Positions 49,138-51,253 of a stretch of 64,000 bases of DNA are shown piece after piece. The DNA is from Ligula intestinalis. Its lineage: Eukaryota; Platyhelminthes; Cestoda; Diphyllobothriidea; Diphyllobothriidae. Position 1 is the first letter of the stretch. Each line of letters starts with the position of its first letter. The notes under the pieces are model-generated. The model was not told the origin of the DNA, did not search any database, and saw nothing but the letters and a program-made list of their open reading frames with translations. Position numbers and translations under genes: made by a program. The stretch is from assembly GCA_036362985.1 (NCBI GenBank), contig JAYGXS010000004.1, positions 43,144,734 through 43,208,733 on the forward strand. The letters are read 5' to 3'.

Positions 49138-49150
49138 GTAGAAAACACTG
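49138..49150. repeat. left 13-bp target-site duplication of PLE-6
   Basis: GTAGAAAACACTG, repeated exactly at 51241-51253. Confidence 0.75.
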
Positions 49151-49195
49151 GACGAGGAAGAAGGCGTGTCGAGGACCGGATCCATTGGTTTATTG

Positions 49196-49245
49196 TTCTC
49201 AGCTTTCGAACTCTTACAGGAGTCCATCTTCAGAGATGAGAAAGC
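49196..49245 (-). ncRNA. hammerhead-like motif, PLE-6 left repeat
   Basis: Minus strand: TTCTCA, CTGAAGA, then GGACTC-CTGTAA-GAGTTC (perfect 6-bp helix II), GAAAGC, TGAGAA pairing with the leading TTCTCA as helix I. The 2-bp helix III is AG/CT instead of AC/GT. The cleavage-site base is G, expected to be inactive. Confidence 0.55.
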
Positions 49246-49415
49246 AACCAAAAATGAAGGTAATTATAGTCACCATAGGCCAATCAACTGTCACAAAACA
49301 TCAGGTTTTCAGGGGGTTAGAAACAGCAATCGAAAAAAGGATGGGGGAGGGGGGGCAACAAGTTGTCACTGGAGTCCGGGGGGGGCATTAAAGTGGTGTA
49401 CGCTAATTAGCTGTC

Positions 49416-49842
49416 AGTGGTCGTCTACAAGATACTTTGCAATGAGGGACATCGCAATTATTTTAGAGAAACAGGCCGAAAATTGCAAACCCACCTGCAA
49501 GAGTACAAACGACTGGCCCAGAGGCTGGAACCAAACTCACAACTGGCAGCACACATTACAGAGACTGACCGTAACTTCGATTTCAAAGGAGCGACCATCG
49601 CAGGCCGAGGAACCTCAAAAGCCGAAACGCTGACTCTCAAGGCACGGGACTCGGATGCCAACTCGATCAACAGGCGTCTAGAGTTGCCAGCGGCCTATAA
49701 AGTCTTGCACCATTATTTGGGAAAGAGACAGAACGGCAATAGTAGCTTGTGTAGCCCCATCAAGGTTTTTAAAACCCCAGCCTACTGTCTAACGGGACTG
49801 GTGGGATTTGGGGGTTCATGGGTGGGGAAGAAGGATGGATAG
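49416..49842 (+). pseudogene. PLE-6 GIY-YIG endonuclease, 5'-truncated
   Basis: Open frame reading VVYKILCNEGHRNYFRETGR, KLQTHLQEYKR, TETDRNFDFKGATIAGRGTS, and SDANSINRRLELPAAYK. It follows the PLE endonuclease order (YKI.C, YxxETGR, EHK-like, GHEFDF-like, SINR). The second Cys is lost, the YIG Gly is replaced by Arg and EAW is replaced by KAR, so it is unlikely to cut DNA. No RT precedes it. Confidence 0.72.
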
Positions 49843-50239
49843 TGAATAATGCATAAAGAAATAAGTCTAACAATTTCCTTAATTGAATTAAATGTGTTTA
49901 TTGCGGGCGCTATATAGCGCCGGCATAGAGAGCGTAAAAAAGACATTTTTAGCGGGATGCCCTATATAGAGCAAATTCACGGTACTGAAGGGTAAACGCA
50001 ACCCAAACACCGAAATGTAAACAAGCGGAATACTAGTAAAACAAAAAATCATAAATATTATGAAAATGTCAAAATAAGGATATTCTAAAGATATATTTCA
50101 CAGAAAACAAACATAACAGCGTCTGGTGCAACGTAAGCCCTATTAAACAAAAAGGGAGCAGCAAATGCAACACGCAAACATATTTACAAAACCCGAAATC
50201 CTTGCCCCAAAAACTAATTCAAAAACTAATCCATATCAA

Positions 50240-50523
50240 AAACCCTAGCCGTTAATCCTAACCCTAACGCTAAACCCTAACCCCAAACCCAAACCCTAAC
50301 GCTAAACCCTGAACCTTAACCCAAAACCCAAAATTTAAACCCTAACCCTAAACCCCAACTCTAACCTTAAACCCGAACTCTAACCCTAAACCCTAACCCT
50401 CAACCCTAACCATCAACCCTAACCCTCAAACCTAAATCCTAAACCTAAATCCTAACCATAACAATAACCCTAACCACAACCCGAACCCTTCCCCTTATCC
50501 TAGCCCTAACCCTTACCCTAGCA
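50240..50523. repeat. interstitial telomere-like tract (CCCTAA type)
   Basis: About 285 bp of degenerate CCCTAA units on the plus strand: runs of AACCCTAACCCTAA mixed with CCCCAAA, CCTAACG, CTCAACC and CCTAAAT variants. The unit is the TTAGGG repeat of metazoan telomeres. Variation increases toward the right end. Confidence 0.88.
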
Positions 50524-51109
50524 GTGCAGTAAATGCGTCCTTAATAAAACCAGTGATAAATAACGCAAACCAAAACTTCCCACCTAAGGTATGTTTTTTA
50601 ATAGCAAGTCGAACAGTTGCTTCTTTATAAGCGAGATAAGTGGGGTAAGTGTAATAGCAAGGCTGGATAGACGATGAATGGGAACAGTCGATTTAAATGA
50701 GTAGACGTAAATACGCCTACTAAAACTAATATAGTAGTTATTTTAGTGTGCCCTTCGAAAATGGGGCTACTGCATTTACGGTTACCGACAGAAAGAAGCC
50801 AAACCACACATAATGAAGGCAAACGAAGAGGACCCCACAACGAACCGGCCAGAAGAGGAGTTGGAGTTACCAGGACCACCTACGGGGTGATAAGGCGGCA
50901 TGCTTATTGCTTTTCATGACCCCCAGCTCCAATGACAGCTAATTAGCATACACCTCTTTAATGCCCCCCCCCCCCGACTCCAGTGACAACTTGTTGCCCC
51001 CCCCTCCCTTATCCTTTTTTCGATTGCTGTTTCTAACCCCCTGAAAACCTGATGTTTTGTGACAGTTGATTGGCCTATGGTGACTATAATTACCTTCATT
51101 TTTGGTTGC

Positions 51110-51160
51110 TTTCTCATCTCTGAAGATGGACTCCTGTAAGAGTTCGAAAGCCGAGAACAA
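51110..51160 (+). ncRNA. hammerhead-like motif, PLE-6 right repeat
   Basis: TTCTCA 51111, CTGAAGA 51120, helix II GGACTC/GAGTTC with a 6-nt loop, GAAAGC 51146, GAGAA. Same fold as the left copy, with one helix III mismatch. Confidence 0.55.
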
Positions 51161-51240
51161 TAAACCAATGGATCTGGTGCTCGACACGCCTTCTTCCTCA
51201 TCCATGCAAATACCTGGATCGCGAACTTTCTCATTCATTT

Positions 51241-51253
51241 GTAGAAAACACTG
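51241..51253. repeat. right 13-bp target-site duplication of PLE-6
   Basis: Exact match to 49138-49150. Confidence 0.75.

Follow-up and report, generated by a model that had tools for sequence, protein, structure and literature searches.

A telomere-like tract within a Penelope-like element of Ligula intestinalis lies in a nested, non-autonomous Merlin-type transposon

Telomeric repeats found inside chromosomes are commonly interpreted as marks left by chromosome fusion. Among Penelope-like elements (PLEs), Athena and Coprina have no endonuclease and are located at telomeres with telomeric repeats. Endonuclease-deficient PLEs are reported from rotifers in PMC3846280, where the Pen families of Adineta vaga are described as endonuclease-bearing, with inverted pLTR arms, a tail of 30-40 bp and a short duplication. 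For DNA transposons of the Merlin superfamily, the definition given in PMC8101967 is an 8- or 9-bp target-site duplication (TSD), terminal inverted repeats (TIRs) of at least 24 bp and a 5'-GG start, with DDE_Tnp_IS1595 as the transposase domain. MITEs that carry tandem repeats include Xstir of Xenopus (Hikosaka and Kawahara 2004) and the GTCY MITEs of insects (Coates 2011), as presented in PMC6947457. For vertebrates, PMC7215372 and PMC8537989 describe interstitial telomeric sequence inserted at breaks, and a TTAGGG telomere is reported as detected in tapeworms (PMC6458723).

The window, by which we mean the whole 64,000-nucleotide stretch of L. intestinalis DNA analysed here, holds a PLE insertion whose outer structure is as an earlier note on this DNA had read it. 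The exact 13-bp direct repeat GTAGAAAACACTG that forms its target-site duplication is present at both 49138-49150 and 51241-51253. Between these lie a left arm (49149-49420, + strand), the start of which overlaps the final 2 bases of the left repeat, and an inverted right arm (50929-51204, - strand). The two pLTR-like arms are identical at 262 of 276 aligned columns, with 10 mismatches and 4 gap columns, in agreement with the ~95% identity already noted. The mismatches sit near the arm ends and a long identical stretch lies between them, a distribution that suggests conversion between the arms. A further 36 bp (51205-51240, - strand) separates the right arm from the right 13-bp repeat. This stretch is joined to the arm in 6/9 other PLE copies, like a PLE tail: a 140-base query made of arm end and tail was matched over 138-139 bases in L073, L076, L077, L079, L080 and L082, over 115 bases in L074 and over 105 in L081, with no match in the sequence available for L078. 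At least one arm was found in eight of the nine other copies read (both in L076 and L077); none was found within the sequence available for L078, which contains what we take to be a YVDD-type motif.

Next to the left arm lies the 3' part of the PLE ORF (49421-49734, + strand), an open frame from ~49420 to 49734 with the translation YKILCNEGHRNYFRETGRKLQTHLQEYKR. This is the endonuclease remnant recognised previously, and its identification as GIY-YIG draws on the relatives of the frame in copy L074 and on a weak match in copy L073. In Pfam, no GIY-YIG match was obtained for the window fragment alone or for the L074 fragment, and the L073 fragment gave a GIY-YIG match at E 0.0049, below Pfam's cut-off, and no RT match. 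The L074 frame has 12 relatives among proteins; the 11 that are named come from Sparganum, Spirometra and Dibothriocephalus, and 1/12 carries PF00078. The endonuclease motif at 49456-49479 is altered in the window copy, reading NYFRETGR where L073 has NYVGETGR. When the PLE flanks are joined at the 8-bp duplication described below, the frame continues in register from 50795 to a tandem stop; this ORF end and the 3' UTR that follows it (50795-50928, + strand) are conserved in PLE copies with an empty site. The pLTR arms, tail and target duplication by which Penelope-like elements are recognised are all present. Together with a putative GIY-YIG-like C-terminus, they are shared with the A. vaga Pen elements as described in PMC3846280, whereas in the window PLE the 5' end is truncated and a nested transposon interrupts the ORF. 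The likeness to Athena and Coprina is confined to the co-occurrence of a PLE and telomere-like sequence; in contrast to them, the window PLE has an endonuclease remnant, and nine other copies of it are without the tract.

What, then, interrupts the PLE? The earlier reading had overlooked that another element begins at 49735 and finishes at 50786, with a target duplication of its own. When the L. intestinalis genome (644 Mb, 2377 contigs) was searched with 49428-50925, only ~49735-50786, tract included, recurred elsewhere as a block, and both of its ends are sharp. This dispersed 1052-bp unit (49735-50786, + strand) is present in at least dozens of copies, as judged from the 40 scored among 2133 first-look candidates, not every one of which is necessarily a copy. 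The window was aligned with the best 20 other matches; the query contained the tract, so this selection favours tract-bearing copies. Beyond the element ends, flanks are unrelated across the 21-copy alignment.

In the window, the nested element is bordered by the 8-bp target duplication GACAGAAC (49727-49734) and GACAGAAA (50787-50794), which agree at 7/8 positions. Across the alignment, 8-bp flanks in strict register match at six or more of eight positions in 15/19 copies, compared with 2/342 control pairs; when the register may slip by as many as 3 bases, the figures are 16/19 and 37/342. The 19 copies include the window and exclude L027 and L028, whose left ends are unaligned, and the controls are mismatched pairs. 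A strict duplication is absent from the remaining four, namely L009 (which adjoins an N run), L021, L025 and L026, the last of which shows an 8/8 match once shifted by one base. The TIRs, GGCAATAGTAGCTTGTGTAGCCCCAT at 49735-49760 (+ strand) and its counterpart at 50761-50786 (- strand), are imperfect. They match at 18/26 positions in the window and at 21/26 in the alignment majority, where the ends are GGCAAAAGTAGCTTGTGTAGCCCCAT and (reverse complement) GGTAACCGTAGCTTCAGTAGCCCCAT, both starting GG. No coding sequence was found in 49735-50786.

We are highly confident that the locus records two successive insertions, that of a PLE and then that of a tract-bearing, non-autonomous Merlin-type transposon nested in it. 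The PLE, with its pLTR-type inverted arms, tail and 13-bp target duplication, would have inserted by reverse transcription. The 1052-bp non-autonomous element would then have transposed by cut-and-paste into the last part of the PLE endonuclease frame, producing the 8-bp duplication. The window copy of the nested element diverges by 6.2% from the alignment majority and the PLE arms differ at 10/272 positions, so by divergence the inner element does not appear younger than the PLE, although it must have arrived afterwards. This apparent conflict might be due to arm-to-arm conversion or to a source copy that had already diverged.

The earlier note had read the tract as belonging to the PLE or having entered it. 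A tract owned by the PLE would make this a new telomere-linked PLE type, and the location of the tract between the inverted arms is in keeping with that reading. PLE flanks joined at the duplication gave a 500-base query, a design that favours uninterrupted copies. With 40 of 1608 first-look candidates scored, 40/42 matched pieces span the insertion site, the two others being the copy in the window itself and one short match located beyond the site. All nine other PLE copies read are uninterrupted there, at 87-89% identity, and have 0-2 telomeric hexamers in ~3.5 kb each; in empty-site copies, the 8-bp target stretch is present once. The search for PLE copies with CCCTAA at the same place, which the note had suggested, thus returned nine of nine without it. 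Set beside the insert's own ends and duplication, and its 20 other aligned copies in unrelated flanks, these uninterrupted copies leave a PLE-owned tract with next to no credibility, and among the PLE copies there is no evidence for a telomere-linked type. The accompanying claim that the tract arrived with an insertion, and is not a fusion scar, holds; it is its assignment to the PLE that fails, since the tract belongs to the nested Merlin-type element.

The tract itself occupies 50241-50520 (+ strand), 280 bp according to TRF, which called periods of 6, 13 and 19; this length is close to the ~285 bp given before. The sequence is degenerate: the CCCTAA hexamer occurs 11 times, and perfect AACCCT units never follow one another three in a row. 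A tract is present at the identical internal position in 21/21 aligned copies, where it measures 147-329 bp and includes 3-17 CCCTAA hexamers. Successive CCCTAA hexamers are 7 bases apart in 32 cases and 6 apart in 15, and the tract is a telomere-like array of mixed CCCTAA and CCCTAAA units rather than a plain TTAGGG array. Its left edge grades into non-telomeric sequence in the aligned copies; at its right edge, variants such as CCGAACCCTTCCCCTAATCCTAGCCCTAACCC are common to copies, which suggests that the tract was probably degenerate already in the family founder.

A tract-independent check used the left end of the element, for which 30 of 47 pattern hits were taken as loci. Both the middle and right blocks are found in 16 of these 30 (the window included, and several also among the 20 aligned copies), and 2-17 telomeric hexamers lie between the blocks in 16/16. 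The other 14, which are without one or both blocks, include larger relatives, shortened copies, and L044 and L056. The latter two have both end blocks, no middle and 0 and 1 hexamers, showing that tract-free short copies exist. Five left-end relatives (L038, L050, L052, L057 and L058) have 0-4 telomeric hexamers in 3 kb.

These observations bear on whether the tract could have arisen without a transposon, as interstitial telomeric sequence that telomerase or a fusion left at a double-strand break; the vertebrate cases (PMC7215372, PMC8537989) provide a precedent. Such an insertion does not account for a tract at the same internal place in every aligned copy, with degenerate variants in common at the right edge and several hundred bp of family-specific sequence on its flanks, and as an explanation of this locus it is extremely unlikely. 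Break insertion could still account for how the family founder first came by its tract. A fusion scar or assembly join was rejected on the recurrence of the tract-bearing unit with unrelated flanks.

The nested family has the 8-bp TSD and a 26-bp imperfect TIR with a GG start, and its ends lead to elements that retain traces of a transposase. When as many as 3 mismatches are permitted, the left-end pattern is found 47 times in the genome, compared with 0 for the reversed control, and some of these hits continue into larger elements whose middle is different. Eight such relatives were read (L059-L062 and L094-L097). Both ends are present in five of them, L059, L060 (rearranged), L061, L094 and L096; in the sequence available, L062 has only the left end, and L095 and L097 have only right ends. 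Overall, the shared left ends extend over ~196-210 bp (73-85% identity) and the right ends over 120-220 bp (68-88%). The left sub-terminal block of the window element (49735-49938, + strand) is 78-85% identical over ~204 bp to L059-L062; with L094 the identity is 75% (196 bp) and with L096 it is 73% (210 bp). Its right counterpart (50584-50764, + strand) is 88% identical over 181 bp to L094 and 79-84% to L095, L096 and L097; with L059, L060 and L061 the identity is 68-70% across 123-138 bp.

L059 is 2814 bp long, begins with the majority's first 30 bases, is bordered by the perfect 8-bp duplication GGAAGTCA and contains a match to DDE_Tnp_IS1595 (PF12762) at E 2.9e-11, read through 2 stops. 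L061 is 3148 bp long with a 7/8 duplication. The genome profile search for this domain scored 150 of 310 candidates, and among those scored no transposase match was found for L060 or L061. In L094-L097, which account for four of 81 right-motif hits, a transposase match lies upstream on the same strand, beside the right block, and 5/47 left-end hits have a PF12762 match nearby on the same strand. No intact transposase with the window's ends was found, and the window TIR is carried by 0/10 other PF12762 loci read (L063-L072, up to 6 substitutions allowed). L065 has a better-preserved Merlin transposase, closest to a Spirometra protein (46%). Two transposase peptides, from L052 and L038, gave no Pfam transposase match by themselves; the transposase matches came from the family search of the genome. 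L062 has two left ends in the same orientation, separated by 3.4 kb (G000:C3:84466484 and C3:84469876).

Target duplications of 8 bp are produced by further superfamilies besides Merlin. Since the nested element is itself without detected coding sequence, its superfamily might have been misassigned, with hAT, P or another such group as its true affiliation. We consider this very unlikely, because L059 shares ~200 bp on the left and 123 bp on the right with the window element and contains the DDE_Tnp_IS1595 match, L094-L097 have that match next to the right block, and the GG-start ends agree with the definition given in PMC8101967. The nested element is thus placed with the Merlin superfamily (IS1016/IS1595-like), with which it has in common the GG ends, 8-bp TSD, ~26-bp TIRs and the transposase match of a larger element with the same ends; it differs in being non-autonomous and in having an unrelated middle, with a tract unseen in the larger relatives. 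It is most likely a derivative that kept both Merlin ends and had its middle replaced by sequence holding the tract.

In the proposed mechanism, the transposon would consist of two Merlin ends around an unrelated middle, which holds a degenerate minisatellite resembling TTAGGG/TTTAGGG. To judge from the shared ends, a Merlin transposase supplied by autonomous copies would act in trans, cutting these ends and reinserting the element elsewhere. The tract would probably be a passenger, spread only because it lies between ends that the transposase recognises. It appears to have had a single origin in the family founder and to have expanded and contracted since, presumably through slippage or unequal exchange.

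How the founder acquired the tract is a separate question, and one answer, compatible with the nested Merlin-type reading, is that telomeric DNA, either a telomerase product or a chromosome end, was captured during repair of a Merlin gap. The larger relatives L094-L097 have 0-1 telomeric hexamers and no tract, which indicates that the middle was replaced in the tract-bearing family, and the tract resembles the TTAGGG telomere reported for tapeworms in PMC6458723. However, the mixed 6-/7-base units and the left edge grading into non-telomeric sequence are also in keeping with local growth of a minisatellite, and we put telomeric capture forward only tentatively, as a possibility somewhat short of an even chance.

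The earlier note had also raised clustering near chromosome ends, and none was seen. On the eight chromosomes of known length, 65 right-motif positions are distributed evenly along the arms (KS p 0.96), with 1 within 1 Mb of a chromosome end compared with 2.06 expected. Telomere targeting of the nested element was rejected on these 65 of the 81 right-motif hits; the other 16 are on C4, C10 and small contigs, and one of them, C4:120596, is near a contig start. A search of the whole genome for (TTAGGG)6 with up to 1 mismatch gave 8 overlapping hits at 5 places and no such array at any contig end. Telomeres therefore seem to be unassembled or different, and the assembly cannot relate the tract to the real telomere.

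The closest parallels to the nested element are the tandem-repeat MITEs, which are likewise short, non-autonomous TIR elements whose internal tandem repeat spreads along with them. In all 21 aligned copies the repeat keeps a fixed internal place, and the window element is a TIR element in which no coding sequence was found. It differs from the MITEs presented in PMC6947457 in the telomere-like nature of its repeat and in that tracts of this kind occur in at least one further repeat family of the genome. Among the matches listed from the open-access literature, judged by title and abstract opening, no report of a telomere-like tract in a Merlin element or in another MITE or DNA transposon was found, and the best matches for Merlin elements or interstitial telomeres in flatworms included none either. 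That MITEs can carry tandem repeats is established; the apparent novelty is a telomere-like repeat on a MITE of the Merlin superfamily. The nested element spreads telomere-like DNA by cut-and-paste, so that CCCTAA arrays in flatworm assemblies and telomere-probe signals need to be checked for transposon ends before they are taken as fusion points. The family also allows the growth and decay of a telomere-like tract to be measured copy by copy.

A wider survey gave 1586 overlapping genome matches to a degenerate TTAGGG-type pattern, compared with 0 for the control. Of 12 loci selected by tract patterns, a small sample made up mostly of more regular tracts, 11 lie in dispersed repeats, and interstitial telomere-like arrays in this genome appear, on that sample, to be transposon-borne. 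Four belong to the nested Merlin-type family (the window included, and two already among the 20 aligned copies). L084, the one locus not assigned to a dispersed repeat, adjoins an assembly gap. A broader proposition, which we regard as rather unlikely, is that interstitial telomere-like DNA in this genome is for the most part cargo of several TIR families that independently gained or exchanged tracts; internal telomeric sites would then mostly owe their origin to transposons and not to fusion events or the repair of breaks. If it were true, the tracts might aid the elements, for example through telomere-protein binding or post-excision repair.

Two loci, L085 and L093, have in common another repeat family that extends across the tract; the telomere-like tract and inverted GTGCGCTGATTGG motifs are shared over L093 ~1226-1914 and L085 ~1128-1908, extents that are approximate. 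In the remaining five, L083, L088, L098, L099 and L100, the tract lies between ends like GGCAGGAGTTTCCTTGGTAGCG, a motif derived from these same loci and matched with at most 6 substitutions. No link between this group and a transposase was found. Its GG ends and 8-bp duplications would suit a Merlin assignment, the flanks matching at 8/8 positions in L083, 0/8 in L088, 5/8 in L098, 6/8 in L099 and 7/8 in L100. The elements of this second TIR group are located at L083 1299-2172, L099 350-719, L100 48-780, L098 288-504 and L088 1294-1949.
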